From the NCBI RefSeq assembly GCF_007993755.1, contig NZ_CP042467.1:1141501-1205500 (forward strand): DNA of 64,000 nucleotides, given 5' to 3'. The position numbers and the translations under genes are program-made. The notes beneath the pieces are model-generated. The model did no database searches, had not been told where the DNA came from, and saw only the letters and a program-made list of their open reading frames with translations. Source of the DNA: Microvenator marinus (GTDB taxonomy: Bacteria > Myxococcota_A > Bradymonadia > Bradymonadales > Bradymonadaceae). Position 1 is the first letter of the stretch; each line of letters opens with the position of its first letter. Shown here in pieces: positions 5,571 to 41,351 of this stretch.

Positions 5571-5695
5571 GCGAGAAGCCTTGGACAACGGATGAGGAGA
5601 CTCAAAAGCGTACCAAACGCTTCGGGCTTATCGTCTTAAGCCTCATCATCCTCATGATGGTTGTTACAGCGGTGTCGCGATTCTACGGCTGGTGA
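5567..5695 (+). CDS. 42-residue single-pass membrane peptide in the oxidase assembly cluster
   Basis: A very small frame of 42 codons starting in an ATGA overlap with ctaG and ending 4 bases before SURF1. The product has a charged N-terminus (MSEKPWTTDEETQKRTKRFG), one hydrophobic helix (LIVLSLIILMMVVTAVS) and ends RFYGW. Tight coupling on both sides and clear membrane-peptide composition support a real gene. By position it could be a small assembly factor or a minor oxidase subunit; I do not recognise a named family. Confidence 0.7.
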   Translation: MSEKPWTTDEETQKRTKRFGLIVLSLIILMMVVTAVSRFYGW

Positions 5696-5699
5696 GACC

Positions 5700-6434
5700 A
5701 TGCCAAAGTTCAAGCCTAAACTCGTCCCTACCCTTGCCACGCTGGTGGGTTTCGGGCTTCTAATCGCGCTCGGCACCTGGCAAGCCCAACGTTACTCATG
5801 GAAGCTCGACATCGAAGAACGGCGCGACCAGAACATGGTTTCGGCGCCCATTGAAGTCTCCTCTCTCAAGGAGATCAAAGACCTCGACTACCGCAAAGTA
5901 CACGCCAAGGGAAAGCTCCTCACAGAGTACTCGGTTTTCTTCAAGTTCCGGATGATCGACGGAAAGTCAGGCTACTGGGTAGCCTCCCCGATGGTCTTTG
6001 ATGACGGAGCAATTCTGGTCCAGCGCGGCTGGAGTCCCATCGAGCAAAAGCCAGAGAACCTTGACCTCAAAGAGGCCGATAGCGTGGAGGGACTAGTCTA
6101 CGCGCTCGACAGGGTAATCGCCGACGCAGACACGCGCGACGCGGTCAAAGAACTCGATAAGGATACACTTCAGGGCTGGAACACACTGGATTTGGATGCG
6201 GTTTATGAAAGACTCCCGTTTGAACGCCCTCAGAGGCCTGCTCTGCTCGTTTTGGATAAGAACGTTGACGCTGACCTAGTCGCATCTCTAGAACACATTA
6301 CACAGCCTTACATGACGTCTGAGAAGCATCTTGGCTACAGCATCACGTGGTACACTTTGTCGGTGGGGCTTCTTATGCTCTGGCTTGCGTCGTGTTTTGG
6401 AAAGATTGGCGGACACGCACCTCGTAAGAGATAA
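5700..6434 (+). CDS. SURF1 family cytochrome oxidase biogenesis protein
   Basis: SURF1 (Shy1) proteins help insert heme A into subunit I. This one has 244 residues with a membrane helix near each end (about residues 7-24 and 215-233), the normal two-anchor topology. Family hallmarks are LGTWQAQRYSWK after the first helix, the DYRKVHAKG strand, and YWVASPMVF followed by VQRGW. The start at the MPKFKPKL methionine follows the small membrane gene by four bases. It closes the assembly part of the oxidase cluster and its stop is one base from the end of radA on the opposite strand. Confidence 0.92.
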   Translation: MPKFKPKLVPTLATLVGFGLLIALGTWQAQRYSWKLDIEERRDQNMVSAPIEVSSLKEIKDLDYRKVHAKGKLLTEYSVFFKFRMIDGKSGYWVASPMVFDDGAILVQRGWSPIEQKPENLDLKEADSVEGLVYALDRVIADADTRDAVKELDKDTLQGWNTLDLDAVYERLPFERPQRPALLVLDKNVDADLVASLEHITQPYMTSEKHLGYSITWYTLSVGLLMLWLASCFGKIGGHAPRKR

Positions 6435-6435
6435 C

Positions 6436-7824
6436 TCAGCGGTCGCCGAAGAGCAGACGCCTTGCCTCGGCTACATGCTGCGCGCCGAGAAGCGCCGATT
6501 CCTTGAGCTCATCCTTCACCTCCTGGATATTGGCTTTCGGACCGAGAACGCGTTTAAACCCGAGCTTTCTCGTCTCGGCCACACGCCGAGCCGCTTGAGC
6601 CACCGCTCGCACCTCGCCTGTCAGTCCCAACTCTCCAAAAATCGCCAGGTCGGACGGAACCGCTCGCTCGTAGAATGACGAGAGAATTGCCATCGCAATC
6701 GCTAAGTCAGCGGCAGGCTCCATGAGCTTCAAACCACCGGCGACATTGATGAAGACGTCCATTCCCGCAACCTTAGCGCCCGTCCTTTTCTCAAGAATGT
6801 TCAGGAGCAAGATCACGCGATTGGTATCTACACCCACTGCAGTGACCCGAGGGGGCCCGTAGTTTGTGGGTGACACGAGCGCCTGCACCTCCACCATCAA
6901 CGGTCGAGTGCCCTCCAGAATGGGCACCACGACGCTTCCGGGAGCGTCGGTAGGCCTGCCCTCCAAGAACGCCGCAGATGGGTTTCCAACTTCATGTAGG
7001 CCGTCTCCGCGCATCTCAAAAATACCCACTTCGTTGGTGGACCCAAACCGGTTCTTCACGGCGCGAAGTAATCGAAACGCACCGGCATTCTGAGACTCGA
7101 AATAGAGGACCGTGTCCACCATATGCTCAAGAACTTTCGGCCCGGCGATTGCGCCTTCCTTGGTCACATGGCCCACCAACACGATTGGAATGGAAAAACC
7201 TTTTCCAATCTGAGTGAGTCGACTTGTCACCTCTCGGAGTTGAGCAACGGAGCCAGGCGCCGAGGTTAGCGACTCACTTTGCAAGGTCTGAATAGAGTCG
7301 ATCACGGCAAGCGCTGGCCGCTTCTCGGAAAGCAACTTCTCGACTCGCTCTACACTCGTTTCGCCCACAACCCAAAGTGCCTTTGAATCCACACCCAGAC
7401 GGTTCGCTCGAAGACGAATCTGGGTCAGACTCTCTTCGCCCGAAATGTAGAGAACTTCGAGCCCCTTGGAAGCAAAATGACCTGCCACTTGAAGTGAGAG
7501 CGTGGATTTGCCAATCCCGGGATCACCGCCCAACATCACGATACCACCCGGCACAAACCCTCCACCGAGAACCATGTCGAGCTCTGCGATATCGGACTTC
7601 ACTCGCTCCTCGGCGAGCATCTCGATGTCACCAAGGCGAATTGGCTCGCCCCCCGCCGCAGCCCCGTAGCCAGAACGGGCGGACGCCACAGACGGCGGGC
7701 CCTCAGGCTCGCGAACCTCTTCGACCATCGTGTTCCACTGCAAACACGAGGGACAACGCCCAAGCCATCGCGGACTCTCATGTCCGCACTCCTGGCAGAC
7801 GTGCATCGTCTTTATCTTGGCCAC
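6436..7824 (-). CDS. radA: DNA repair protein RadA
   Basis: RecA-like ATPase that acts as a branch-migration motor in recombinational repair. The 462-residue protein has the full-length bacterial layout: a four-Cys zinc finger (C10, C13, C24, C27), a RecA-type ATPase core with Walker A GDPGIGKST (100-108), the RadA-specific KNRFGSTNEVG motif, and a C-terminal Lon-like domain ending after the GELGLTGEVRAV segment. It lies 12 bases downstream of the OmpA-family gene on the same strand and may share its transcript. Confidence 0.96.
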   Translation of the reverse strand: MAKIKTMHVCQECGHESPRWLGRCPSCLQWNTMVEEVREPEGPPSVASARSGYGAAAGGEPIRLGDIEMLAEERVKSDIAELDMVLGGGFVPGGIVMLGGDPGIGKSTLSLQVAGHFASKGLEVLYISGEESLTQIRLRANRLGVDSKALWVVGETSVERVEKLLSEKRPALAVIDSIQTLQSESLTSAPGSVAQLREVTSRLTQIGKGFSIPIVLVGHVTKEGAIAGPKVLEHMVDTVLYFESQNAGAFRLLRAVKNRFGSTNEVGIFEMRGDGLHEVGNPSAAFLEGRPTDAPGSVVVPILEGTRPLMVEVQALVSPTNYGPPRVTAVGVDTNRVILLLNILEKRTGAKVAGMDVFINVAGGLKLMEPAADLAIAMAILSSFYERAVPSDLAIFGELGLTGEVRAVAQAARRVAETRKLGFKRVLGPKANIQEVKDELKESALLGAQHVAEARRLLFGDR

Positions 7825-7836
7825 CGAGGCCCCCTT

Positions 7837-9921
7837 TTATTGTTGGAGTCTAAACTCGACGCGTCGATTGATGCTTCTATTTCGGTTCGAGGTGTTCGGA
7901 AGAATCGGTCGATTCTCACCATAGCCTTCGGCTGTAAGTCTTTCGGAGCTGATTCCCTGGTCGATCAAGTGTTGACGCACGGCCTGCGCACGTCGCTTCG
8001 AAAGGTCCAAATTGAAGTCATCAGGCCCCACATCATCTGTGTGCCCCTCGATTTGTACCTTCTTGATCTGAGGGTTTTCTACCAGAAGCGACGTCACTTG
8101 TTGCAGGAGTGGGAACGACCGCTGTTGAATCGTCGCTTCACCGTTATCAAAGTAAATCGTCTGGCGTATCTCGATCTTGTCATCTCTCAATTCTACCAAA
8201 TCCTCTTTCGGTGCCGGACTCAAGACAAACATCAACTCGAGCGTTTTATCGCCGACCACCTCGATATCGCGTCCACGAGACAGGAACCCAGGGGCAGTAA
8301 CGCCCACGGAGTACTTCCCTGGCTTGAGTTCCTGCGCATAGTCTCCCGCTGCGCCCACAGGAATCTGCTTCTCTTCGGAACCCGTAAACCGCACGCTTGC
8401 ACCCGCAATCGGATTACCTGCCTCGTCTCGTACATCGCCGCGAACCGTACCGGCCTTTGGAAGCGCCTTCATTTGCACGGCGAGCGGATGCTCACCTGGC
8501 TCGCCTGGAAGAGTTCGTTCAACCTCGATGGGCTCGTAATCAGGATGTTCAATGGCGAACGTCACCCGCGACCCAGGCATGAACTCGTACGATCTAAACT
8601 TTCCGTCGGCACCGGTAGCTTGAGCGGTCTCGCCGCCAAGAGGATACCGCACAATCGCGCCGGAGATCGGCTCACCGGACTCTTGATCCCTCAAGGACCC
8701 TGCGACCCATGCCACCGGAGCGGCTTCTGGAGTCTTGGACTCTCGCTCTACGTATTCAATCTTTGGTGTCGGATCGATGGTCCACTGAACCCCGACGACC
8801 AACTCCCATGGAAGCGTCACAGGCAGTCCCGCTGCGTCCTCCGAGGTCAGGCCGATGTCCACACCAGCGTGCAAACCGAGGTTCTCAATAGGCTCGGACT
8901 TCACACCAACCGAAAGTACGTTCGGGAACGCCGGAAAACCGAGGTCCGAAACACATGGGAGATTGGGTTGGTCACACACACCATCTGCGCCAGAGACGGG
9001 AATCGCCATGCTCCACGCAAGGAACGGCGAGACGTATGGGAACTCGTATTCGATTCCTGTTCCGATCTCCACCGCGTCATAGGCGGAGAGTTGGTAAGCA
9101 AATCGTTCTACTCGCGTCGGTGTGAGGCCATCGGGCACGAGGTTTTCGGACCCGTCCATTCGGTAGCCGATATTGAGGTGCGCATTCAGATGCATTTGGT
9201 CGTCGCTAAGCTCCGAACCCTTCATCGAAACCAGCAATCGTGGCCGAATGCCGAAACCCGAGAAGTCCACACCCGTTGAGCCGAAGCCCGTAGGTACAAA
9301 GAAGGTCGAATCGAGGCCGAGGTAGAATCCCGGGGCGACGTCGAAATAGCCTTTGAGTCCAAGTGCCGCATCCCCTTGTGAAAGCATGGCTTCCGGACGT
9401 CCAAAACTATTGACGTTCGACTGAAAACGCAGGCGCAAATTGGCAGAAAAATACTTGAAAGGACTCGCTTCGATCAGGAGGTTTCCTGCGAAGAAGTCGT
9501 TCGTGTCGTTGAAGCGTATGGTGTTTGAACCGGTGTAGAACTGACTCATGAGGGCAATTCGGTAGGTATGTGGTGCACCACCCCACGCGGAGCTCAAGTT
9601 TTGCAATCCGACACTACCTTCTAAGTTGAGCATCGCGCTGACAAGCCGCGAGTCGCCCTCGTCCTCAGTCTCTTCCTCAGTCGGCACCACCGCAGTGGCA
9701 CTTACGCCCGGCGCAATCTCAACTTCCGACCCTTGATCTGTCTCTCCGGTTGCGTCTTCGGCCTCCTCAGCTGGGGCTGCCCCCTCAGTCACAGGTTCAG
9801 TAGCTGCGGGCTCGGCCGCGTCATCTGTAGATCCCGTCTCCCACGGCATATCCTGAGAAAATGCAGAAAATGGCAGGCCCGTAACGAGTAGCGCAACGGC
9901 TACTCTCTGTGAAAACAACAT
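7837..9921 (-). CDS. OmpA-family outer-membrane protein with carboxypeptidase-regulatory-like repeats
   Basis: Large envelope protein of 694 residues. It has a signal peptide ending near FSAFSQ, an acidic Ala/Glu/Thr-rich linker (about 25-80), a region that looks like an outer-membrane beta-barrel (about 95-390), two CarboxypepD-regulatory-like beta-sandwich repeats (VAGSLRDQESGEPISGA and VRGDVRDEAGNPIAGA) and a C-terminal OmpA peptidoglycan-binding domain with IEGHTDDVG and NRSINRRVEF. The likely role is anchoring the outer membrane to peptidoglycan. CGGAG lies 6 bases before the ATG. A long open frame on the opposite strand is only a coding shadow. Confidence 0.88.
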   Translation of the reverse strand: MLFSQRVAVALLVTGLPFSAFSQDMPWETGSTDDAAEPAATEPVTEGAAPAEEAEDATGETDQGSEVEIAPGVSATAVVPTEEETEDEGDSRLVSAMLNLEGSVGLQNLSSAWGGAPHTYRIALMSQFYTGSNTIRFNDTNDFFAGNLLIEASPFKYFSANLRLRFQSNVNSFGRPEAMLSQGDAALGLKGYFDVAPGFYLGLDSTFFVPTGFGSTGVDFSGFGIRPRLLVSMKGSELSDDQMHLNAHLNIGYRMDGSENLVPDGLTPTRVERFAYQLSAYDAVEIGTGIEYEFPYVSPFLAWSMAIPVSGADGVCDQPNLPCVSDLGFPAFPNVLSVGVKSEPIENLGLHAGVDIGLTSEDAAGLPVTLPWELVVGVQWTIDPTPKIEYVERESKTPEAAPVAWVAGSLRDQESGEPISGAIVRYPLGGETAQATGADGKFRSYEFMPGSRVTFAIEHPDYEPIEVERTLPGEPGEHPLAVQMKALPKAGTVRGDVRDEAGNPIAGASVRFTGSEEKQIPVGAAGDYAQELKPGKYSVGVTAPGFLSRGRDIEVVGDKTLELMFVLSPAPKEDLVELRDDKIEIRQTIYFDNGEATIQQRSFPLLQQVTSLLVENPQIKKVQIEGHTDDVGPDDFNLDLSKRRAQAVRQHLIDQGISSERLTAEGYGENRPILPNTSNRNRSINRRVEFRLQQ

Positions 9922-12689: not shown

Positions 12690-14753
12690 GTGGACATTTT
12701 CAAACCAGGAGTCAATTGCCTTGATGTCTACGAGGATATTGAGGTCAGTATCTTTCGAGATTCGAAATCCTATTTCGATGAACTCGTCGAAGCACTCAAA
12801 AATGCCCGTCAGACCATTTATATTGCCGGTTGGGAAATGGAATCCCAAATGTGGCTCCAGCCTGACTCGCCATCGCCAAAGACGCTAGAGTCGCTCCTCA
12901 AAGAACTTCTTTCAAGCCGACGAGACCTGCAGATCTACTTGCTCATCTGGGATATGAGCGAGGTCAAAAGGATGGCGAACAATCCTATAAAGATGCTCAG
13001 ACCCGCGTGGTTTCCTCACCGCAGACTCAAGCTTCGACACGACGACCACTACCCTTTTGGGGGCTGTCATCATCAGAAGTTCGTCGTGATCGACGACCAA
13101 CTTGCCTACTGCGGCGGCATCGACCTTACGGTTGGACGCTGGGATACCCCGGAACATCGCCCTGTGGACTCGAGACGTAGCGACGCATTTGGTGTTGAGC
13201 ATGGTCCTATCCACGACTTCCAGCTCCGAGTTGACGGCGAGCCAGCAAGAAAGATGGGAGCACTCTTTCGTGAGCGTTGGCTGAGGGTTTCGAGGAGACC
13301 ACCGCGAACTCCGCGCGTCGCGCCTTACCCTACACCTTTCGAGAGCACCTTGAGGGCAAAAACACTGGCTCTGGCACGCACAGACCCAGCTGTGACGCCG
13401 TCGATCCGGGAGATCGAGAGGCTCTTTCTCGACACGATCGCCGCGGCAAAGTCCTATATCTTCATCGAGAACCAATATCTAACCTCGCCGATCATTGGGG
13501 ATGCCCTCTCGAAGCGCCTTGAAGAAGCCAATGGCCCTGAGATCGTGATTATTGGCCCACGAGAACCCGCTGGATGGCTCGAGGAAATCACGGTTGGGAT
13601 GCTGCGCTGGCGGGTGATTGAGCGCCTCCGAAGAGCCGATTCATCTGGAAGACTCCGTATCGTCTACCCCATGGCATCGGTCGAAAATGACGTCACCCTC
13701 TACGTGCATTCAAAATTCATGATTGTGGACGACGCGTTCATTCGCGTGGGGTCTGCAAATATATCTCAACGATCGTTCCGAATCGATTCTGAACTCGATA
13801 TCGCGGCTATTTCCGAAGATCACGAGACCCTGCGTCGCCTCCTTTGTGAGCTGCTTGCCGAACACACAGCGCTTCCCCTTGACCGTGTTCAAGACGCTCT
13901 TCGCGACTCAATTGCCAAAGGCTTGGACGCTCTGATGCTCGAAGGCGAGAGCTCAGACCGAAGACTCGTGACGCTAGGGAATGCACCACAGGCTGCGTGG
14001 CGAAAGTTCGCCCATGACGGCGACATCCTTTTCGACCCGGATAGACCACGCTCCTTGGCCCAGATTGCGGATGTCGTGCTTGGCGCAAAGGCTCGCAAAC
14101 GGTTTTTGAAGCGAGTACCAAACGGCCTAATCTCCACCATCGTCTGGACCGCTCTCTGCCTGATTTCAGCCAAAGTCTTGCATTTATCTTCTGTAGACGT
14201 GCTCCAAATCGATGCGTTCTTCGCGAGCTGGCAAGCGCTGGTCGCTATCACGTTGGGATGTCTGGTCTTGCTCTCGTTTGGCGCGCCCATCTTTGTGGTT
14301 TTGGTCTTTCTCAATCTGGTATTCGACGGCATCACCTCAATCCCTGCCGCACTCCTTGTAACCACAGGTGCTGCGGTGGTTTCCTACAGATTGGGCCAAA
14401 GAGTCGGAAGAAGCGTGCTCAATCGAATATGGGGTTTGAAAGTCAAAGACGTCCAAAAAGAACTCTTTAGGCGAGGAGTCTTTAGTATTGTGGCGCTACG
14501 CTTTTTGCCTATCTCCACATTTGCGGCTGTGGGTTTAGCCGCCGGCGCCGCCTCACACCCCTTTAAACCCTATGTCATTGGCAGCGTTCTGGGCATGGTA
14601 CCGAACGTGTTGCTGCTTTCTCTCACCGCCATGTTCATCGCTCGATACGCGCGTTATCCAAACCCGTTCGAACTCGCGCTTGTGGCCACTTCGCTAGCTT
14701 TCATCGCCCTGGTGATGAAAGCCGTTTCGAGGCACCTTCAAAGAAAGAGTTAG
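12690..14753 (+). CDS. Phospholipase D-like protein fused to a VTT (TVP38/TMEM64, DedA-like) membrane domain
   Basis: 687-residue fusion. The N-terminal two thirds is a phospholipase D/cardiolipin-synthase-like domain with two complete HKD motifs, HHQKFVVIDD and HSKFMIVDD, each H-x-K-x4-D, followed by GGIDL and GSANIS. The C-terminal 200 residues form a membrane region with about five helices and the VTT-type segment RFLPISTFAAVGLAAGA. The start is GTG, supported by AAGGGAG about 8 bases upstream. It probably acts on phospholipids at the inner membrane, possibly coupling head-group transfer to lipid flipping, since VTT/DedA proteins can act as lipid scramblases or transporters. The coupling is inference. 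Confidence 0.88.
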   Translation: MDIFKPGVNCLDVYEDIEVSIFRDSKSYFDELVEALKNARQTIYIAGWEMESQMWLQPDSPSPKTLESLLKELLSSRRDLQIYLLIWDMSEVKRMANNPIKMLRPAWFPHRRLKLRHDDHYPFGGCHHQKFVVIDDQLAYCGGIDLTVGRWDTPEHRPVDSRRSDAFGVEHGPIHDFQLRVDGEPARKMGALFRERWLRVSRRPPRTPRVAPYPTPFESTLRAKTLALARTDPAVTPSIREIERLFLDTIAAAKSYIFIENQYLTSPIIGDALSKRLEEANGPEIVIIGPREPAGWLEEITVGMLRWRVIERLRRADSSGRLRIVYPMASVENDVTLYVHSKFMIVDDAFIRVGSANISQRSFRIDSELDIAAISEDHETLRRLLCELLAEHTALPLDRVQDALRDSIAKGLDALMLEGESSDRRLVTLGNAPQAAWRKFAHDGDILFDPDRPRSLAQIADVVLGAKARKRFLKRVPNGLISTIVWTALCLISAKVLHLSSVDVLQIDAFFASWQALVAITLGCLVLLSFGAPIFVVLVFLNLVFDGITSIPAALLVTTGAAVVSYRLGQRVGRSVLNRIWGLKVKDVQKELFRRGVFSIVALRFLPISTFAAVGLAAGAASHPFKPYVIGSVLGMVPNVLLLSLTAMFIARYARYPNPFELALVATSLAFIALVMKAVSRHLQRKS

Positions 14754-14841: not shown

Positions 14842-15948
14842 ATGAGTAAAAGAGACTATTACGAAGTTCTAGGACTGGGTCGAGACGCCGACGAACGCGC
14901 CATCAAGAAGGCGTACCGCGAATTGGCAATGCAGTTCCACCCGGACAGAAACCCGGGTGATGACGTCGCAGAAGCCAGCTTCAAGGAAGCCGCCGAAGCT
15001 TATGAAGTTCTCTCCAACCCTGAAAAGAGAAAACTCTACGATCAGTTTGGTCACGAGGGCCTAAGCGGCCGCGGAGCAGGTCCTGGCTTCGGCAGCGTAG
15101 ATGATATCTTCTCTCAGTTTGGAGACATCTTCGGAGACTTCTTCGGTTTTGGACGTCAGCGAAACCCCAACGGCCCAAGGCCCGGGGCGGATCTAAGACT
15201 CGATATCGAACTCACCTTTGAAGAAGCCGTTCGCGGCACACAAAAAGAGGTTGAAGTTCGCAGACACGCTGAGTGTGAAACGTGCAGCGGCTCCGGGGCA
15301 AAACCCGGTACCGAGCCCGTGGTTTGTTCAACGTGCGGCGGACGCGGACAAGTCCATCACTCACAGGGCTTCTTTACCCTCTCTTCAACCTGCCCGCATT
15401 GCCGTGGACAAGGCAAAGTCGTCAAAGATCCGTGTGAAGACTGCTCCGGTGCTGGAGTCACTGAAGAGAAGAAAATGGTCACCGTGAAGATCCCGCCAGG
15501 GGTTGACCACGGAACCAGACTTCGAATCCGAAATGAAGGAGAAGCAGGCCGCAAAGGGGGACAACGCGGAGACCTCTACGTTTTCCTTCACGTTGAGCCG
15601 AGCGAGATTTTCGAGCGCGACGGAGCCAACATTCACCTCAAGGTTGGAATCTCATTCGTGCAGGCCGCCCTTGGTTCGGAACTTGAAATCCCGACCCTCG
15701 ATGACCCAAAGAAGATCACCATCAAGCCGGGAACACAGTACGGGGACACTCTGGTCCTAGAGAACCACGGCATACCTCACGTCAACAGGCCCAACGCGAA
15801 GGGCGCACTCATCGTTCACTTTGACGTTCGGATCCCCACAAAGCTGGACTCAAAACAACGCGAACTTCTGGAAAAATACGCCGAGATTTCAAACATCTCG
15901 ACCACAGAAGCGAGCTTCTTCGACAAGCTCAAAGAGAAGATTCTCTAA
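14842..15948 (+). CDS. dnaJ: Molecular chaperone DnaJ
   Basis: Hsp40 co-chaperone that stimulates DnaK ATPase and holds unfolded proteins. The 368-residue protein is a complete type I DnaJ: J-domain with HPD at 33-35, Gly/Phe-rich stretch with [15 protein letters not shown], four CxxCxGxG zinc repeats ([32 protein letters not shown]) and the C-terminal beta-sandwich domains. dnaK and grpE are not next to it. Its last four bases overlap the tail of the convergent reductase gene. Confidence 0.97.
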
Positions 15949-16679
15949 AGGTTGAGTCGCTTGAAAAGTGCTTCAGGCATCACCTTGATCACACCCATGA
16001 TTCCTCGCCAAAATCGCGGGTAGTACATCTCGTTTTCTCCACGCGATGCCGCTCGCTTAATTGCAAGTGCAGCGTCAGCAGGGTCAGCCACTGGAATTGC
16101 GGTTTCCATGCCGTAGGTCATGCGGGTATCCACAAAGCCAAGCTTGACGGTCAGGACATGCACACCTGACCTAAAGCACCGATTTCTCAGGCCTTGCAAA
16201 TAAAGGGCGAACGCACCCTTAGCGCTTCCGTAGATATAATTTGATTGCCGTCCACGATCTCCTGCCACGGAACTCAGCCCGATAATCGTGCCCGAGCTTC
16301 GCTCGATCATCTTTTGAGCCACCAACTCTGAAACACTCACCGAGCCGGTGTAGTTGATATCGATAACCCTTCTAGCCGCGCTCGGGTCTGTCTCGGACTC
16401 CTCTTGTTCCCCCATGTCCCCAAAGGCAACCAGAGCAACTTCGATGGCGCCGAGCTCGGACTCGACTTGCTCGACCAGCGCGGCGTGCGCGTCGAGGTTC
16501 GTGGCGTCAAAAGCCCCAAAGCCTGTCCGCACACCAAATCTCACCTTCAAATCTGCGGCGATCCTTTCGGCCTCCGCCACGTCTCTTGCCGCAAGATAAA
16601 CCGCGTGCCCTTCCTCGGCATAAACACCCGCAATGGCGCGAGCGATGGGCGATGTCGCACCCAGTATCAAAACGCTCAC
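15945..16679 (-). CDS. Short-chain dehydrogenase/reductase, DprE2-like
   Basis: 244-residue NAD(P)-dependent reductase. The Rossmann motif [12 protein letters not shown] resembles the DprE2 form rather than the classical TGxxxGxG; the active-site Ser is in GLSSVAGDR and the YxxxK pair in YGSAK. The start is a GTG preceded by GGAGGTG and overlapping the stop of the upstream oxidase gene as GTGA, so an upstream in-frame ATG is rejected. In mycobacteria DprE1 and DprE2 together epimerise decaprenylphosphoryl ribose to arabinose by oxidation then reduction. The same gene pairing here suggests a two-step epimerase acting on a polyprenyl-phosphate sugar; the sugar is unknown. Confidence 0.82.
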
Positions 16680-18043
16680 TTTGCACCTCCCACAAGTCCA
16701 AGGCGACGCCCCAACTCGGACTGGAAGATATAATTCGGATCCCATTCATCACGAACGGCTTTCCACTTTTCCCACTCCGGGTACATCTGCCGAAACTTCG
16801 CTTTGCTCAGCCGAGCATCTTTTCCGAGATAAACTCGGCCACCGCTCGCGATGACGATATCGTCGAGTCGCTCCATCATGTCCAACAAAGGTGTCCCAAA
16901 ATTCGGGAAGTCGAGCGCCAATGTGGTCCCTCGAGACGGAAACGATAACCCGCCGTGATCTCTGTCCCCAAACTCCTTTATCACCGCGAGAAAACTAGCC
17001 ATCCCCGAGTTTGAAATTACTTCCAAAATCTCACGAACAGCATCCTTCTCTGGAACCACCATCTGATACTGCAAAAAGCCACGCGACCCGTAGAGATAGT
17101 TCCAGTTATCGACAGCATCCAAAGGAAAAAAGAACGGCACGTAGTGTACCGAACTCGACGTGGTACCTGCCGGGGTTTTTCTAAAATATGCTTCATTAAA
17201 GAGCTTGATCGTTGCCTTGTTGAGCCAGAGATTCGACTCCAAATCGCGCACGTTCAATATGCGTTGTGCAAAGGATGCCAGGGCATCAAGAGGCGACGCC
17301 CCGGTCTGCACATCAGCGGGGGCGTGGCGTCCTCTCATAAAGATACCGCGCCCCATGGAAGCACCTTGTTTGACGCAATCCACCCAGCTCACAGTATGAG
17401 TAAAATCCGCGCTATCGGCGCTGACTTCAAAGAACTCGTCGAGGTTGTTGACCCTGACCGACTCCATCAAGATGCCCGGTGACTCCACACGTTCCAGCTT
17501 GACTTCCAAGCTCAAAATCACGCCCGTCATGCCCATCCCGCCGACGGTCGCCCAGAAGAGCTCAGGTTCGCGTTCACGGTCACAAATCACGATATCGCCC
17601 GACGCAACAAGGAGCTCGACGCGCCGCACATGATCTCCCCAGCACCCATCCACGTGGTGATTTTTTCCGTGGATATTGCACCCGAGCGCACCTCCAACTG
17701 TGACGAATTGAGTGCCGGGCACCACAGGTGGAAAAAAGCCTCGCGGCAAGAAGGTATCGATGATCTCCTTGAGGCTCACGCCTGACTCCACGCGCAACCA
17801 ACCGGTCTCCGGGTCGAAATCGAGCATTCGATTCAAGCGTTGTGTCAGGACAACCCTGCCGTCTTTGATCAACGCAGCGTCCCCGTAGCTTCTGCCTAAG
17901 CCATAGGCGAGCACGGGATGTCCGTCTCTTTCACTCAGCGCATTCTCGACGTCCTTCATCCTTTCGGGACGCGCCACCCATGCCGAATGCCTCGGATATC
18001 GCCCCCAACCTTCCAATTTGGTTGGCGCCCATTGAGTCTTCAT
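16676..18043 (-). CDS. FAD-binding oxidase, DprE1-like (decaprenylphosphoryl-ribose oxidase family)
   Basis: 455-residue oxidoreductase of the vanillyl-alcohol-oxidase fold. The FAD-binding loop GLGRSYGDA is at residues 48-56, followed by VGGALGCNIHGKNHH. The C-terminal segment KDARLSKAKFRQMYPEW then DPNYIFQSELGRRL closely follows the DprE1 tail. DprE1 oxidises the 2'-OH of polyprenylphosphoryl ribose. It overlaps the partner reductase by 4 bases and begins 3 bases after the metallophosphoesterase, so it belongs to the operon led by the Spy-like gene. DprE1 versus another sugar oxidase of the family is not settled by sequence alone. Confidence 0.85.
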   Translation of the reverse strand: MKTQWAPTKLEGWGRYPRHSAWVARPERMKDVENALSERDGHPVLAYGLGRSYGDAALIKDGRVVLTQRLNRMLDFDPETGWLRVESGVSLKEIIDTFLPRGFFPPVVPGTQFVTVGGALGCNIHGKNHHVDGCWGDHVRRVELLVASGDIVICDREREPELFWATVGGMGMTGVILSLEVKLERVESPGILMESVRVNNLDEFFEVSADSADFTHTVSWVDCVKQGASMGRGIFMRGRHAPADVQTGASPLDALASFAQRILNVRDLESNLWLNKATIKLFNEAYFRKTPAGTTSSSVHYVPFFFPLDAVDNWNYLYGSRGFLQYQMVVPEKDAVREILEVISNSGMASFLAVIKEFGDRDHGGLSFPSRGTTLALDFPNFGTPLLDMMERLDDIVIASGGRVYLGKDARLSKAKFRQMYPEWEKWKAVRDEWDPNYIFQSELGRRLGLVGGAK

Positions 18044-18046
18044 ATC

Positions 18047-19213
18047 TCAATCCTTCGCTTCATCAGAAAACGCTACGTGAAGCACACTCTCTTCTGCTGG
18101 TACACCGATTCTCAGCGGGAATCCATAGTGTCCTAAACCACGATTGACATAGAGCCGCATGCTGCCGCGAGAAAACAGTCCCTGGTCAGGCACCACGCCC
18201 GTGGCGCCGACAACTGTAAACGGTACTCCAAGACTCAGAAGCCCAAGCTGTCCACCGTGGGTATGTCCGCTCAAAACAAGGTCCGCGGACTCGTCCGGAA
18301 GATACCGAAAATGTGAGGGGTCGTGCAGAAGTACGATCCTGTGCGTGGTCTTTCCACCGACGTGATTGAAGACTTTGTCGATATGGTCCTTGACCTTCAG
18401 AAACCGATAATCGATGCCGACGATCTCCACTTCACCAATCGCCGTTTCCACACGCTCCGCGGAGTCGATAAGCCACGAAATACCAAGCTCAGCGCACACG
18501 GTCGCAGGCGTCTCGGGTGCTTCCAAATCGTGATTTCCACGACACGCAAACACCCTGCCCTTCATCGCAGCCAGCGGTTCAAGAGCATACCTCAAGGCCT
18601 CTACATCTCTTTGCGATTCCATGGTCATGAAGTCGCCCGTCAAGAGCACTAAATCAGGGTCCTTAGAAACGATCCTCTCTACCGCCCGCCGCGCTCGCTT
18701 GGCCGAGACAAACGGCCCGAGGTGGAAATCGGTGAGATGGCCAAGCCGCAGACCCTGAATCTCCGCCGGCGCTACGGTTTTTTGCCTCTGAAAACGACCA
18801 GAGTGCACACGACCAATTCCAACCTCAGAAGGTGAGTGAACCAAAGATTGGATCAGCCCAAAGCCAGCCACAACAAAAGGAATCGCGAGAAGCATTGGCT
18901 CGACTCCCATCACCTTCATCGCCGCCCATGGCAGAGCCAAAACAGTCGCTGCCACTAAAAAGAGCGCGGGCCAAGTGATGACCAGTCTCCACCAGAGCGG
19001 GCGAAGCCGCGGTCTAATCAACGAAAGAAAGTGGACATGAACCAGCGCCACCCCTGGGGCAAACCAGAGCTCGTATTCAGGAAAGAAAAGAATCTCCCAG
19101 ATTGCAGACTGCACACCCAGAAGTACCAGTAAAAATACCGCATACACTCGATTGCGCAGCACCAGCGCCAGCAACACGGAGAGCAAAAATGCGCCCCATA
19201 GTGGATATGTCAT
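18047..19213 (-). CDS. Membrane-anchored metallophosphoesterase
   Basis: 388 residues: an N-terminal half with about four membrane helices (to roughly residue 130) and a C-terminal calcineurin-like phosphoesterase domain. Metal-ligand motifs are in order: DFHLG, LTGDFM, CRGNHD and SGHTHGGQ. This layout matches YaeI/YkuE-type phosphoesterases, some of which are linked to lipid phosphate hydrolysis. It lies between the histidine kinase (8-base gap) and the DprE1-like gene (3-base gap), so a role in polyprenyl-phosphate or envelope lipid metabolism is a reasonable inference. Substrate is unknown. Confidence 0.87.
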   Translation of the reverse strand: MTYPLWGAFLLSVLLALVLRNRVYAVFLLVLLGVQSAIWEILFFPEYELWFAPGVALVHVHFLSLIRPRLRPLWWRLVITWPALFLVAATVLALPWAAMKVMGVEPMLLAIPFVVAGFGLIQSLVHSPSEVGIGRVHSGRFQRQKTVAPAEIQGLRLGHLTDFHLGPFVSAKRARRAVERIVSKDPDLVLLTGDFMTMESQRDVEALRYALEPLAAMKGRVFACRGNHDLEAPETPATVCAELGISWLIDSAERVETAIGEVEIVGIDYRFLKVKDHIDKVFNHVGGKTTHRIVLLHDPSHFRYLPDESADLVLSGHTHGGQLGLLSLGVPFTVVGATGVVPDQGLFSRGSMRLYVNRGLGHYGFPLRIGVPAEESVLHVAFSDEAKD

Positions 19214-19221
19214 TAAGACTC

Positions 19222-20550
19222 CTAGTCGGTCTTCAAACAGATGCGCGCAATCAGCCCAGGATGCGTGTTTTCAAATTCCAAGGTCCATCCGTGTACCCGA
19301 CACACTCGACGCGCGATGTTCAGACCAAAACCCTGCCCACCTGGGTTCCTATTCCTCGCGTCATCAGATCGAGCGCCGCGTTCGCCGAGCTCCTCGAGCA
19401 TTTCTTCAGGCACGCCCGGACCATCATCCATCACCTGGACACACCAGACTTTGCCGGCACCTCGGGACTCTTGCTCGAGCAAAACACTGACGTGGCCTCG
19501 CGGCTCGACGTACTGTATCGCGTTCTGCACCAAATTGCTCAGCGCCTGTTCGAGCAACGTTGAGTCAGCCTCAATCTCCACAGCCTCTTCAGGAAACCCA
19601 GCGTTAAACTCCACGTTCTTCCATTGAGCGACTGGCCCGTGCCGCTGAACCACACGCTCCAAAAGCTCGACCAAGTTCACCTGATGTTTGACCACATTTT
19701 CCGACCGTTCAAGGCGCGCCGCAGCCCCCATATTTCTGACAAGAGACGAGATATAATGCGACTCCTGCAGCGCAGCCTCCACGTGCTCTCTCGAATCTTC
19801 ATCGATGGCTCGCACCAGCCTGTGCTGGAGCACCGTCAGCGGAATCGCGAGGTCGTGCGTGGTGTTCGACACAAACTCAGTCAAGGCCTCATCACGAGCT
19901 TTGAGGTCGTCGATGGTCTGTCGAACGCGCGCGCCGAGGCCGGAGAAGGCACGGGCGAGGTCGCCAATTTCGTCTTTGTCCTCGAGGCTCGACTCGACCC
20001 GGAAATCAGCGGCCTCCGCGCTCTCGACCTCTTTTTGCAGCTTCCGAATTCGACGCACAAGCGGACCAGCAATCACCAAACCTGTGAGAAATAGCAAGAA
20101 CGCGAGCGCCACGCTTTGACCGATGATTGGCTTGAGCACAGGCCCGCGTGGTGGCGGCCTCGACCACGTCAAGAGCATGACTTCACATGCCCCTCCCATA
20201 CCAGTTCGCACCGCACTTGCTCCGCTCCGCCGAAAACCGAGATCGTGGACCGGCTCCTCGCTCTGAACCACGTCTTTCAGGCCCGCGGGAAACCTAGGTG
20301 CATTCGGATTCTTCGATTGCAGATTCAGGTCGTAGGCCCAGCCTTTAACGCCCCTTCGCGAGAATTCCCAGGTTTCGGGCCTCTCCAAACACCGAAGCGG
20401 CGGGCGCGCTGAGATTCTAGTCGCCATTCGGTCGCTGACCCTCTCCATCACGTCGTTCCGCTCAGCACCCACTCGCCACAAAGTGAAGAGCGCAACCAAA
20501 GGAACAACCAGCGCCACTATCACGAGCGCGACTTTCAACGGAAGTTTCAT
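19222..20550 (-). CDS. Sensor histidine kinase
   Basis: 442-residue membrane sensor. Two membrane helices (about 5-27 and 142-165) bracket a periplasmic domain of some 115 residues, followed by HAMP, HisKA and HATPase domains. The phosphoacceptor is H232 in NTTHDLAIPL; the N box is NLVQNAIQYV, and Gly-rich boxes are DDGPGVP and GGQGFGLNIA. Its start overlaps the stop of the response-regulator gene as ATGA. With a Spy-like gene at the head of the operon it looks like a CpxA-type envelope stress sensor, though the periplasmic domain is not obviously CpxA. Confidence 0.93.
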   Translation of the reverse strand: MKLPLKVALVIVALVVPLVALFTLWRVGAERNDVMERVSDRMATRISARPPLRCLERPETWEFSRRGVKGWAYDLNLQSKNPNAPRFPAGLKDVVQSEEPVHDLGFRRSGASAVRTGMGGACEVMLLTWSRPPPRGPVLKPIIGQSVALAFLLFLTGLVIAGPLVRRIRKLQKEVESAEAADFRVESSLEDKDEIGDLARAFSGLGARVRQTIDDLKARDEALTEFVSNTTHDLAIPLTVLQHRLVRAIDEDSREHVEAALQESHYISSLVRNMGAAARLERSENVVKHQVNLVELLERVVQRHGPVAQWKNVEFNAGFPEEAVEIEADSTLLEQALSNLVQNAIQYVEPRGHVSVLLEQESRGAGKVWCVQVMDDGPGVPEEMLEELGERGARSDDARNRNPGGQGFGLNIARRVCRVHGWTLEFENTHPGLIARICLKTD

Positions 20551-21221
20551 GCTTTGGTCTTAGGCGAAGAAGCAAAACGGTAGCCGATGCCCCAAACCGT
20601 CTCTAAATGCACCCCAGCATCCCCGAGCTTCTTGCGGATTCTCGAGACGTGTACATCCAGGGTCCTAAACCCGCCCTCGCTCTCCTCATCTAGGACGCGC
20701 TCCACAATCTGTGCACGAGAAACCGACTTATCCAGACGCGAAATCAAAAGGGCCAAGATATCAAACTCCACGCGTGTCAGATCTATCAACTCTCCGTTGA
20801 CCTTAACCTCGCGCTCGTCCTCGAAAAGCGTCAGCGGTCCAATATCTCGGCTCGAACTTATAATCGCTGGGCGCCTGAGCCGCGCATCTACACGGGCGAT
20901 GAGCTCTTCAGGCCAAAAGGGTTTCGTGACGTAGTCGTCCCCGCCCAACGAAAACCCTCGCACCTTGTCGTGGGTGTCCGTCTTCGCTGTCAAAATGATG
21001 ACCGGAACCTCAGATGATTCCCGCCAACGTTTGAGCAAATCAAACCCATGGACGTTGGGCAGCATGAGGTCGAGGATCACCAAATCATACGACTCAATGT
21101 CTTCTCTTCGCGCCGTTGCTCCGTCCGTGCACCAACGCACAACGTGGCCAGCACGCTCAAGCGTGCCGACCACTTCATTTCCGAGGTTCGCATCATCCTC
21201 AACTACCAGGATTTTAGGCAT
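20547..21221 (-). CDS. OmpR/PhoB-family response regulator
   Basis: 224-residue two-domain regulator. The receiver has the acidic pair at D9-D10, phosphoacceptor D51 in ILDLMLPNVHG, the switch Thr in ILTAKTD and K100 in VTKPF. The C-terminal winged helix (about 125-220) includes LTRVEFDILALL and GGFRTLDVHVSRIRKKLG. Its ATG follows the stop of the Spy-like gene directly (TAA ATG), and its stop overlaps the kinase start. The direct repeat in front of the operon is a candidate binding site for it. Confidence 0.95.
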   Translation of the reverse strand: MPKILVVEDDANLGNEVVGTLERAGHVVRWCTDGATARREDIESYDLVILDLMLPNVHGFDLLKRWRESSEVPVIILTAKTDTHDKVRGFSLGGDDYVTKPFWPEELIARVDARLRRPAIISSSRDIGPLTLFEDEREVKVNGELIDLTRVEFDILALLISRLDKSVSRAQIVERVLDEESEGGFRTLDVHVSRIRKKLGDAGVHLETVWGIGYRFASSPKTKA

Positions 21222-21878
21222 TTACTCTCCCTTCTTTGCCTGGCCCTTTCTCTTACCCTTACGGTCGCCTTTGTGCTTAGCCTTCATCGCGTCGAACTTC
21301 GCTGCTTGTTCAGCACTCAGCACCGCACGAATCTTGCCTTTGACCTCTTGCCGATGGGCCTTTAGCTCAGGGCGCGCCTGGCGTCGGTCAGAGTCGTTGG
21401 CTTCAAGAATCAACTCTCTTTCAGCCTTTGCGTCTTCCATAATGGACTTGATTTGATTTCGCTGGGGCTCGGTCAGCTCCAACTCATCGGCCAACTTCTC
21501 AAGCCGAGGTCCCCTCTCACCACGCTTGCCCTTGAACTTGGCCTTGCGCTTTTCCATCTTCGCATCGAGTTTCGCGAGTTGTTGCGCGTCCAAGGTCTTT
21601 GCAAGCTCGGCACGCGTCTCAGCCTTCAAAGCCCTCATCTGCGCCCGTTTTTCTTCCTTTGGCAAATCGCTCTTCTTGAGCTCTTTAAACTTCGCGCGTT
21701 TATCCTCTTGAATGGTCTTGAACGCCTTTTCCTGCGCCGGGGTCAGTTTCAACTCCGCCTTGATCTCTTCAAGACGCTCACCCTTCTTTCCTTGATGTGC
21801 ACCCACGACACCCACCATACCGACGGTGGTCATCAAGAAGGCGCTGGCTACTAAAAGTTTCTTCAGGTTCGTTTTCAT
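21222..21878 (-). CDS. Spy/CpxP-like periplasmic LTxxQ protein
   Basis: 218-residue exported, highly charged all-helical protein with signal peptide ending near GVVGAHQ. Two LTxxQ-type motifs, LKLTPAQEKAF and LELTEPQRNQI, mark the Spy/CpxP family, whose members act as ATP-independent periplasmic chaperones or repress a sensor kinase. It is longer than Spy (about 160) because of duplicated Lys-rich helical stretches. The inner ATG is chosen because GGAG lies 6-7 bases upstream. First gene of the six-gene operon; negative feedback on the adjacent kinase, as for CpxP on CpxA, is inference. Confidence 0.82.
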   Translation of the reverse strand: MKTNLKKLLVASAFLMTTVGMVGVVGAHQGKKGERLEEIKAELKLTPAQEKAFKTIQEDKRAKFKELKKSDLPKEEKRAQMRALKAETRAELAKTLDAQQLAKLDAKMEKRKAKFKGKRGERGPRLEKLADELELTEPQRNQIKSIMEDAKAERELILEANDSDRRQARPELKAHRQEVKGKIRAVLSAEQAAKFDAMKAKHKGDRKGKRKGQAKKGE

Positions 21879-21929
21879 CTCGTTCTCCATATTTGGATTC
21901 TCTCAGACGTCCATCGCCTGACACACTAG

Positions 21930-21962
21930 ATTCTACGAACCGACTCTTAAGAGAGTCTTAAG
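21930..21962 (-). promoter_or_regulatory. Candidate promoter with response-regulator direct repeat for the Spy-like operon
   Basis: On the minus strand a -10-like TAGAAT (21930-21935) lies about 45 bases from the first gene. Just upstream, CTTAAGA occurs twice with an 11-bp period (21945-21951 and 21956-21962), overlapping where a -35 box would be; no good -35 hexamer is present. Tandem half-sites of 10-11 bp period are the usual target of OmpR/PhoB regulators, and the overlap suggests activation at this promoter. The inner CTCTTAAGAG is also a perfect palindrome. Confidence 0.55.
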
Positions 21963-21984
21963 CGATTTCATTTTTTACAAAGAA

Positions 21985-22872
21985 CTAGAAATGCCACGGG
22001 AAATCCTTGTAATCCTGTGGCCTTTTCTCCAAAAACGCGTCTCGCCCCTCTTGGGCTTCATCGGTTCCATACGCAAGCCTTGTGGCCTCGCCCGCAAACA
22101 ACTGCTGCCCAACCAGCCCATCGTCGATCATATTGAAAGCGTATTTCAGCATTCGAATCGCCGTGGGGCTCTTCATGCATTCACGCGCCCATTCAAGCGC
22201 CGTCTCCTCGAGTTTATCGTGGTCAACCACAGCATTGACCATACCCATCTCGTAGGCTTGTTGAGCGGTGTAGGTACGGCCGAGGAAGAAGATCTCTCGA
22301 GCAAATTTCTGACCGACTTGCCGAGCCAAATAGGCCGACCCGAAACCACCATCAAAACTAGCGACATCTGCGTCGGTTTGCTTAAACTGGGCGTGCTCAC
22401 GGCTCGCGATCGTCATATCGCACACCACATGGAGGCTGTGCCCACCGCCCACGGCCCAGCCCGGCACCACGCAAATCACAACCTTCGGCATAAATCGAAT
22501 CAGCCGCTGAACCTCAAGAATATGAAGCCTCCCAAGTCGTGCGGGGTCCACACCCTCAGCTCCCTCATATTTGTAGCCATCTTTCCCGCGAATCCGCTGG
22601 TCACCACCGGAACAAAACGCCCAGCCAGCATCTTTAGAAGATGGCCCGTTTCCGGTCAAAAGTACCACGCCCACGTCCGGCGTCATGCGCGCGTGGTCAA
22701 GGGCGCGATACAACTCATCCACGGTCTTTGGCCGAAACGCGTTTCGGACCTCGGGACGGTTAAAGGCGATACGAACGGTGCCCTGATCCTTGGCACGGTG
22801 ATACGTAATGTCCTCAAAATCGAACCCCTCAACAGCTTCCCAACGTGACTCATCAAAGATTGCAGATACCAT
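21985..22872 (-). CDS. menB: 1,4-dihydroxy-2-naphthoyl-CoA synthase
   Basis: Crotonase-fold enzyme that closes the second ring of menaquinone from O-succinylbenzoyl-CoA. The 295-residue protein has the MenB-specific N-terminal segment NRPEVRNAFRPKTVDEL, the loop SGGDQRIRGKDGY and the oxyanion-hole region VVPGWAVGGGHSLHVVCDMT. The end RPQDYKDFPWHF is typical. It stands alone, divergent from the NERD-domain gene, with no other men gene in the window. Its presence indicates menaquinone as an electron carrier. Confidence 0.95.
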   Translation of the reverse strand: MVSAIFDESRWEAVEGFDFEDITYHRAKDQGTVRIAFNRPEVRNAFRPKTVDELYRALDHARMTPDVGVVLLTGNGPSSKDAGWAFCSGGDQRIRGKDGYKYEGAEGVDPARLGRLHILEVQRLIRFMPKVVICVVPGWAVGGGHSLHVVCDMTIASREHAQFKQTDADVASFDGGFGSAYLARQVGQKFAREIFFLGRTYTAQQAYEMGMVNAVVDHDKLEETALEWARECMKSPTAIRMLKYAFNMIDDGLVGQQLFAGEATRLAYGTDEAQEGRDAFLEKRPQDYKDFPWHF

Positions 22873-39461: not shown

Positions 39462-41351
39462 ATGGACCTACGAAGAAAAAACCGAGCTCATATCCCGTGG
39501 AGAATTGTTCTCTGGTCACTGGTCTTAACGGTCTTTGTGCTCGACATCTTGAACGACACGCCATTGCACGCAAGTGTCGAATTTCCCGCCGAAACTCCAG
39601 TGGAGCTCACACGCGACGTCGCGTCAGACGTGCTTTTGGTACTCGACTACGATGCGATTCGCGCGAGCGGTGATTCATTTTCCCAGCGCGACTTCAGTGC
39701 CGCCTGGATCAACACCTTCGAACAAGAACTTGGCCCGGTTCGAATCGCCACGCCCAAGACGCTGACTCGAAAATCGATCGAAGAATCGTCCGTGGTGGTG
39801 CTCACCTCCAGCGTCTCTAAGTCCGTGCCCGATGCTCTTATCTCCATTCTTAGAGAGAACTTGCTAGACGACAGGCTGCTGGTGGTTGTGGAGCGCCCCG
39901 AAGGCCTGCTCAGGGAACGGTTTTCGGCCGATGGAAAGGTCGGCAAACAAATGGGGCAGACCTTCACCTTCGTCCGGGATCTCCAGGACCCATTCAAACA
40001 AGAACTCTTGCAAATGCCCGTGGATATCGAATTCATCGGCTCCACCAGCGCACGTGAAGGCGCACAAACATGGCTCTCCATTGACGGAGCTCCGGCCATC
40101 TACGAAACCCCTATCGGCAAAGGCAAAGTCATCACGTTGGAGTTCGATTTCGGCGAGCTCATGGTGGCCACGCAACAAGGTCAGCCAAAGGACGACTTCT
40201 CCATCGCACGACCGGAACCCCGAACTTGGGACCTCATTCGAGACCCTCGACTCAAACAAAATGCGATCCCCTTCGCGGACCTCCTCGAGCGCTACGTCGT
40301 TCACACGGTCATCGGCTCAAACCGAGTGCTTCCCTTCTACTGGCCGTTTCCGGCTGGCAAAGACGGTGCACTAGTCGCCGTCCATACCGATAGCGAACTA
40401 GGCAACGGTGCCGCATGGATGCTTCGCCACGAGGCCGAGAACAAGCGCGCCTCCACCCTCCTGAGCACCTCTGACAACCTCATCGATGCAGACACCGCGC
40501 AGTCCGTAGACCAATTGGGTGGCGACCTCGGCCTGCTCTGGCGCCTGCAATCTACACCTCACGAGATCTTGGACCGATTTGGCCTCGGGTCCATCAAACC
40601 TTTCGCAAAAGCCGTCGTCCTCGAAACTCAACTGGAGAACTTGAGGAAAAAGGCCAGCGGCCCCGTTAACACCTCCATGATTTATGATAACTGGTGGACC
40701 ACGGATTGGGAGACACCACTCAGCGCGCTCGCTTCAAAGGGCGTTCGCGTCGACCTCTCCTACTCACAAGATCAACAAAGTGGGTTTGCTTTCGGCACAG
40801 GGCTCCCGTTCTTAGCCCTCGATAGAACCGGACTACCTCTCTCGATTCGCGAGTTCCCAGTAACCTTTCCGCACGGCTACAGAGCTGGCCCGAACGAAGA
40901 AAAGCTGCTCCAAAACAGCAAGAATGGGCACCATCAAGCTCTCGTACACGTCAGCGCTCCGGTCGCTTTCGCGGACTTCCCCGACATCCAGAAGTTCAAC
41001 GCCTGGCTTGAGCTCACAGAGCTCGCCGAATCCTTCGACCACGCCTACCTGAGCGTCAACCAATTCGACGCGTTCCAACGTGCCCGAAGGTCAGGCACCA
41101 TCAACTCTGCACGAAGTGAACGCGAGCAAGAGTTAGTCATCGAACTCACAGTTGAGGCAAAAAGACGAGACCTAGAGCTCGGAATCCCTGAAGTCGTCGA
41201 CTCCAAAGTATTCAAGCTCGCGCGCCCCAAAGGCAGTGAAAGCTTCGGAAGTACAGAGTTTGAAACTCGAGTCGTCAACTACTCCGGCAAAACCGTCCGA
41301 CTCATCCCGCTGAACTCCGGATTCACCACTATCGAGGTAGTTTGGCAATGA
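39462..41351 (+). CDS. Degenerate polysaccharide-deacetylase-like membrane protein (paralogue 1)
   Basis: 629 residues: N-terminal membrane anchor (about 13-31), a GATase-like alpha/beta region (about 55-230), then a region recalling a NodB-type barrel (about 290-560) where GALVAVHTDSELGNG sits at the first metal-motif position and GDLGLLWRLQ at the second. The Asp-Asp and His-x-x-x-His metal ligands of active deacetylases are not kept. It is followed by a paralogue with the same architecture (shared AWxNxxxxEfG, GKGxVxTxxF and GLPLxxxxxP blocks). Role unknown; a carbohydrate-binding or regulatory role at the envelope is inference. Confidence 0.6.
   Translation: MDLRRKNRAHIPWRIVLWSLVLTVFVLDILNDTPLHASVEFPAETPVELTRDVASDVLLVLDYDAIRASGDSFSQRDFSAAWINTFEQELGPVRIATPKTLTRKSIEESSVVVLTSSVSKSVPDALISILRENLLDDRLLVVVERPEGLLRERFSADGKVGKQMGQTFTFVRDLQDPFKQELLQMPVDIEFIGSTSAREGAQTWLSIDGAPAIYETPIGKGKVITLEFDFGELMVATQQGQPKDDFSIARPEPRTWDLIRDPRLKQNAIPFADLLERYVVHTVIGSNRVLPFYWPFPAGKDGALVAVHTDSELGNGAAWMLRHEAENKRASTLLSTSDNLIDADTAQSVDQLGGDLGLLWRLQSTPHEILDRFGLGSIKPFAKAVVLETQLENLRKKASGPVNTSMIYDNWWTTDWETPLSALASKGVRVDLSYSQDQQSGFAFGTGLPFLALDRTGLPLSIREFPVTFPHGYRAGPNEEKLLQNSKNGHHQALVHVSAPVAFADFPDIQKFNAWLELTELAESFDHAYLSVNQFDAFQRARRSGTINSARSEREQELVIELTVEAKRRDLELGIPEVVDSKVFKLARPKGSESFGSTEFETRVVNYSGKTVRLIPLNSGFTTIEVVWQ

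Follow-up and report, generated by a model that had tools for sequence, protein, structure and literature searches.

In a 64,000-nucleotide stretch of DNA from Microvenator marinus, a Gram-negative relative of the myxobacteria (NZ_CP042467.1; hereafter the window, whose positions are used for the locus unless a coordinate carries a prefix), six minus-strand genes spanning 15945-21890 place a DprE1/DprE2-type epimerase pair behind an envelope-stress type two-component system and its Spy-like periplasmic protein. The reading developed here, to which we give about even weight, is that, in one lineage, an autoregulated operon for a Spy two-component system has taken in a known epimerase pair, so that envelope stress would raise the supply of arabinofuranosyl donor. 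In the order of reading, the genes and the putative regulatory site that precedes them are as follows:

21930..21962, minus strand: putative response-regulator box and -10 element, CTTAAGACTCTCTTAAGA-N9-TAGAAT, lying before the Spy-like gene and containing an 11-base direct repeat
21222..21890, minus strand: Spy/CpxP-like periplasmic LTXXQ protein (PF07813, 7e-12; hydrophobic N-terminus)
20547..21221, minus strand: OmpR/PhoB-type response regulator (PF00072, PF00486)
19222..20550, minus strand: sensor histidine kinase with two transmembrane helices (PF00672, PF00512, PF02518; hydropathy)
18047..19213, minus strand: metallophosphoesterase with about five N-terminal membrane helices and a YaeI/LpxG-like catalytic domain (PF00149; hydropathy)
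16676..18043, minus strand: DprE1-like FAD oxidase, a polyprenylphosphoryl-ribose 2'-oxidase homologue (profile, PDB match, tree, residues)
15945..16679, minus strand: DprE2-like short-chain dehydrogenase/reductase (SDR), with a GTG start overlapping the oxidase stop (profiles, PDB match)

All six open reading frames of a preliminary description of the locus are present, and their junctions, read from the sequence, are as tight as it had stated. No bases separate the Spy-like and regulator genes (21222/21221), the regulator and kinase genes overlap by 4 bases (20547-20550), gaps of 8 bases (19214-19221) and 3 bases (18044-18046) precede the phosphoesterase and oxidase genes, and, with GTG taken as the reductase start, the oxidase and reductase genes share the 4 bases GTGA (16676-16679). 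The family assignments hold as well, with Pfam matches to LTXXQ, Response_reg plus Trans_reg_C, HAMP/HisKA/HATPase_c, Metallophos, FAD_binding_4 plus ALO, and adh_short. A sequence scan revealed no terminator-like site at any junction, and neither a promoter nor a terminator was found between the kinase and phosphoesterase genes; the promoter scan, which returned no sigma-70 promoter-like site in 15700-22200, is a weak test. Collectively, gaps of 0-8 bases, 4-base overlaps and junctions free of terminators support the earlier view that the six genes form one operon. Downstream, a dnaJ-like gene is convergent with it, overlapping the reductase stop by 4 bases.

Sequence comparison places the oxidase firmly in the DprE1 clade. 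The protein matches the mycobacterial DprE1 structures with E=1.7e-88 in a PDB search, and in a maximum-likelihood tree of 29 close relatives, further homologues, both mycobacterial enzymes and six aldonolactone-oxidase (ALO)-type proteins, a branch with 100/100 support sets the oxidase and both mycobacterial DprE1 proteins apart from the six ALO-type relatives. The equivalents of Y60, H132, K134, Q334, Q336, K367 and K418 (mycobacterial numbering) are invariant in 30 oxidase orthologues, and Y60, K134, Q334, Q336 and K367 are absent from the ALO-type outgroup. The preliminary description had named a placement outside the DprE1 clade as the result that would speak against it; the 100/100 branch and the invariant residues therefore remove that objection. 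By homology, the enzyme would oxidize polyprenylphosphoryl-ribose at C2'. The position of mycobacterial C387, the residue attacked by benzothiazinones, where alanine or serine gives natural resistance in mycobacteria (PMC6015584), corresponds to A376 of the oxidase and is alanine in 30 of the 30 orthologues, predicting that these enzymes are insensitive to covalent benzothiazinones. A set of DprE1 orthologues without the cysteine hit by these compounds is now on hand; in our literature search, DprE1 came up in no paper on Bradymonadia or myxobacteria.

The reductase has mycobacterial DprE2 as its best PDB match (4e-33) and scores 285 bits against NF005489, a broader SDR model with a cut-off of 267. 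As would be looked for in a DprE2, its gene adjoins that of the DprE1-like protein and is translationally coupled to it through the 4-base overlap.

The host genome (G000; 5.85 Mb, one contig) also encodes an enzyme that could supply the pair. Profile searches found six UbiA-family proteins, and the protein encoded at G000:C1:2313046-2313948 exceeds the cut-offs of both NF008977 and NF008978 for DPPR synthase (decaprenyl-phosphate phosphoribosyltransferase). This locus lies 1.15 Mb from the operon and is unlinked to it. The synthase gene is divergent from a family 2 glycosyltransferase (GT2) gene, which is followed by a gene for a GT-C-type glycosyltransferase (L014:10029-13956 = G000:C1:2313028-2316955); the synthase-GT2 divergence recurs in 11 fetched relatives, in 8 of which a GT-C match adjoins, and the arrangement is preserved within the family. 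Although Pfam and NCBIfam assign the GT-C protein to no family, its model has a clear GT-C fold, closest in structure comparison to PimE, ALG3 and ArnT (Z up to 22). The fold does not reveal which donor the protein uses, since it matches mannose-, glucose-, aminoarabinose- and arabinose-using enzymes alike.

At the head of the operon, the combination of an LTXXQ periplasmic protein, an OmpR-type regulator and a sensor kinase is that of a Cpx-like system. Together with a conserved putative regulator box before the operon, these families bear out the earlier assignment to an envelope-stress type two-component system. Translation of the Spy-like gene probably begins at its second ATG (21878), a codon preceded by GGAG. 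In the periplasmic domain of the kinase, a cysteine pair is invariant in an alignment of 7 orthologues from 7 genomes and is possibly a disulfide or a redox- or metal-sensing site. A literature search for LTXXQ/Spy together with two-component systems, by those terms, returned no paper joining them.

Read from 21962 to 21930, the box places TAGAAT nine bases after CTTAAGACTCTCTTAAGA. Its consensus, CTTMAGA-N4-CTTMAGA-N9-TAnnnT, was derived partly from this very promoter, and, with that circularity, no other site in the host genome matches CTTMAGANNNNCTTMAGANNNNNNNNNTANNNT perfectly. The same layout precedes Spy-like or regulator genes in six other genomes (G043, G146, G008, G048, G112 and G082), and five relatives contain 9 sites at one mismatch or fewer, the majority in front of a Spy-like or regulator gene, compared with 1 site for the reversed pattern. 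The box is probably the binding site of the operon's own OmpR-type regulator; in position and spacing it would suit an activator of the OmpR/PhoB type that overlaps the -35 region. A wider regulon was considered and set aside, as other sites with two mismatches look random. One further host site, CTTCAGATTCCCTTAAGA, followed by a weak -10 at the spacing seen in the operon box (G000:C1:1454546-1454578; L189:5547), stands directly before an efflux operon encoding MacA-like, ATPase and MacB-like proteins (genes 5579-8777), a possible second target of the regulator. In G146, a box at G146:C1:5578579-5578611 (L219) precedes the gene of a small secreted lysine/histidine/alanine-repeat protein.

Several observations, given in this and the next two paragraphs, weigh against the reading set out at the start. 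The preliminary description had suggested searching Bradymonadia and Myxococcota genomes for conservation of the six-gene order. Among 57 genomes sampled from the class, with about 30 loci carrying oxidase orthologues of 57-71% identity, the full order occurs in 2, the host and G043 (L009/L047, JAUIBR010000012.1), which belongs to another genus. Because it is intact there at 43-69% protein identity, the order is more than chance. Elsewhere, the reductase gene adjoins the oxidase gene in nearly all of the loci, the pair being kept in about 25 of the 30, amid unrelated neighbors, and clustering of the neighbors in other genomes revealed no third partner conserved alongside the pair. Kinase orthologues (41-49% identity) in G008, G048, G146, G112 and G082, five further genomes of the family, are unlinked to the oxidase; each of these five genomes has its own regulator, and in four a Spy-like gene is close by. 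As the stress system, the phosphoesterase and the oxidase-reductase pair thus occur separately in other genomes, the operon is a joining, in one lineage, of three independent units: Spy-regulator-kinase, phosphoesterase and oxidase-reductase. In the fetched loci, no box lies near oxidase genes outside the two genomes with the six-gene order, and none was found in the synthase loci. In addition, a GC-rich hairpin (GCCCCCG...CGGGGGC, then TTTCT; z -2.5) lies between the Spy-like and regulator genes of G043 (L009:6722-6797) and may limit read-through as an attenuator in that second genus only. These data leave a substantial, though less than even, probability that the pair is a housekeeping unit of donor synthesis that has stood behind the stress operon since the ancestor of the two genera, driven by its own or basal promoters, with stress control serving no glycan function. 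Such a unit would account for a two-gene pair kept in about 28 genomes among changing neighbors, for a stress system that is independent of the oxidase in five relatives, for the absence of the box near oxidase genes in the fetched loci of other genomes and for the hairpin. However, gaps of 3-8 bases and overlaps leave scant space for separate promoters, the scan, weak as it is, showed no promoter-like site in the region, and the order has been kept in two genera despite the divergence of their proteins.

The identity of the substrate has also to be weighed. The oxidase scores 444 bits on NF053785, below the 500-bit NCBIfam equivalog cut-off, and the reductase 194 bits on the DprE2 model NF053786, below its equivalog cut-off of 250; the oxidase is named DprE1-like because it falls inside the clade yet outside the cut-off. 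Some residues of the mycobacterial pocket differ in the oxidase (S228V, Y314F, N385T and C387A). In 284 sampled genomes of the phylum, 166 have both oxidase and synthase, 4 the oxidase only, 85 the synthase only and 29 neither (p 2e-9), by a Fisher test that ignores shared ancestry and from tables transcribed by hand; within the class alone the same counts are 34/2/10/10 (p 2e-4), and one family of the class has neither gene. An improbable alternative is that the pair acts on some other sugar, whether lipid-linked or nucleotide-bound, and that the DPPR synthase serves ribofuranose transfer only. The sub-threshold scores, the altered pocket and the 85 genomes with a synthase and no oxidase are in its favor, but the key residues are all kept in the 30 orthologues and the pair co-occurs with the synthase.

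Other steps of the pathway are less well accounted for. A motif scan found no PAP2-type (Rv3807c-like) phosphatase near the oxidase-reductase pair or the synthase, no 5'-phosphatase of the pathway was identified, and inspection by eye around the synthase and around the operon, with no genome-wide search, showed no MATE or SMR flippase. The membrane phosphoesterase, which the preliminary description suggested might act on polyprenyl phosphates, has a Mre11/Rv0805-type fold in structure comparison and five helices in its AlphaFold2 model, in which the membrane part is of low confidence; from the charge distribution, its catalytic domain is probably cytoplasmic. Relatives of about 40-51% identity occur in 70 other genomes of the phylum, and in the readable loci they are not beside the oxidase or this two-component system; in G236 about 6 kb separate one of them from the reductase gene, and elsewhere they are not next to pathway genes. 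Across the 284 genomes the phosphoesterase is distributed independently of the synthase (p 0.52) and of the oxidase (p 0.33; both by Fisher tests with the limits given above); 10 genomes carry it with neither, and most genomes with an oxidase orthologue have no relative of it. Because it does not co-occur with the pathway, the suggested role on polyprenyl phosphates is doubtful. It is therefore very improbable that the phosphoesterase is the missing 5'-phosphatase, turning polyprenyl-phosphoribose-5-phosphate into the oxidase substrate within a single metabolic cassette of phosphatase, oxidase and reductase, even though it adjoins the oxidase in two genera, has a membrane anchor, intact metal motifs and a catalytic domain that probably faces the cytoplasm, and belongs to a field in which unrelated phosphatase families perform the 5'-phosphate step in different bacteria (PMC11127046). 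Co-occurrence and neighborhoods both speak against it, and the protein is most reasonably seen as a passenger that has a role of its own. Of the preliminary interpretation as a whole, the operon, the DprE1-clade oxidase with its paired reductase and the stress-type two-component system are supported, as is the presence of the first pathway enzyme in the genome; conservation of the order across Bradymonadia and Myxococcota and a dedicated polyprenyl-phosphate role of the phosphoesterase are not supported.

Capture of the epimerase pair by the Spy operon would work as follows. The operon would be transcribed from the promoter with the 11-base direct-repeat box, bound by its own OmpR-type regulator. 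As in Cpx-type systems, the kinase would sense envelope stress and the Spy-like protein would damp it, so that stress raises the Spy-like protein and the two-component system and, by read-through that we infer from the junctions, the phosphoesterase and the DprE1/DprE2-type pair. By oxidation and subsequent reduction at the 2'-OH, the pair would convert polyprenyl-phosphoryl-ribose into polyprenyl-phosphoryl-arabinofuranose; the starting lipid would come from the unlinked Rv3806c-type synthase of the UbiA family after a phosphatase has taken off its 5'-phosphate. Because stress would raise the epimerase pair, it would shift the pentofuranose donor pool from ribose towards arabinose, and the GT-C protein beside the synthase is a candidate user of this donor on a periplasmic glycan. 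The anatomy of the operon, found in two genomes, and the box make it plausible that the epimerase is under stress control. We hold more tentatively, as a rather unlikely extension, that stress switches a surface glycan from ribofuranose to arabinofuranose decoration, with the 2'-epimerase under the autoregulated Spy system and the synthase encoded separately.

Elsewhere in the window, 12690-14753 encodes a 687-residue protein in which a phospholipase-D-like part is joined to a DedA/SNARE-associated-like membrane domain at the C-terminus, and 39462-41351 and 41342-43291 are two overlapping genes in tandem whose membrane-anchored products, of about 630-650 residues, resemble each other (both recognized by eye).

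The locus can be compared with several known systems. With CpxP-CpxRA and similar Spy/LTXXQ-linked systems it shares the LTXXQ protein, the OmpR-type regulator, the two-helix kinase and a box before the Spy gene. In contrast to CpxP-CpxRA, the Spy, regulator and kinase genes are here codirectional in one operon that runs on into the phosphoesterase and epimerase genes, and the box is CTTMAGA repeated at 11 bases rather than a CpxR box. The phosphoesterase resembles YaeI/LpxG-type enzymes in its calcineurin-like catalytic domain with intact metal motifs, but it carries about five N-terminal membrane helices and falls below both cut-offs (101 bits on the YaeI model, cut-off 188; below the LpxG cut-off too).

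Pentofuranose systems are known in Gram-negative bacteria, with DprE1/E2 homologues where arabinofuranose occurs (Kelly et al., PMC11127046). The three-component systems of Citrobacter O1/O2 and Pseudomonas pilin (PMC11127046) likewise combine a polyprenyl-phosphoribose synthase, an epimerase, which is DprE1/E2 where arabinofuranose is found, and a GT-C glycosyltransferase; here, however, two separate loci hold the parts, no phosphatase domain is fused to the synthase, the epimerases sit in a stress operon and no MATE flippase was recognized nearby by eye. In mycobacteria, DprE1/DprE2 (Rv3790/Rv3791) produce the arabinose donors that go into the cell wall. The resemblance to this pair and to Rv3806c lies in the adjacent oxidase and reductase, the DprE1-clade residues and an Rv3806c-type synthase in the genome. 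The differences are that the synthase is unlinked, C387 is replaced by alanine, the pair follows a two-component system in a Gram-negative host, and the GT-C protein beside the synthase stands outside the Pfam and NCBIfam families. The DprE1/E2 enzymes and the Gram-negative pathway are thus already known, and the new element is their coupling to an autoregulated Spy operon. If functional, this coupling would be a natural example of pentofuranose chemistry placed under stress control in the envelope of a Gram-negative bacterium, one in which the box, the regulator and the enzyme pair are all defined.

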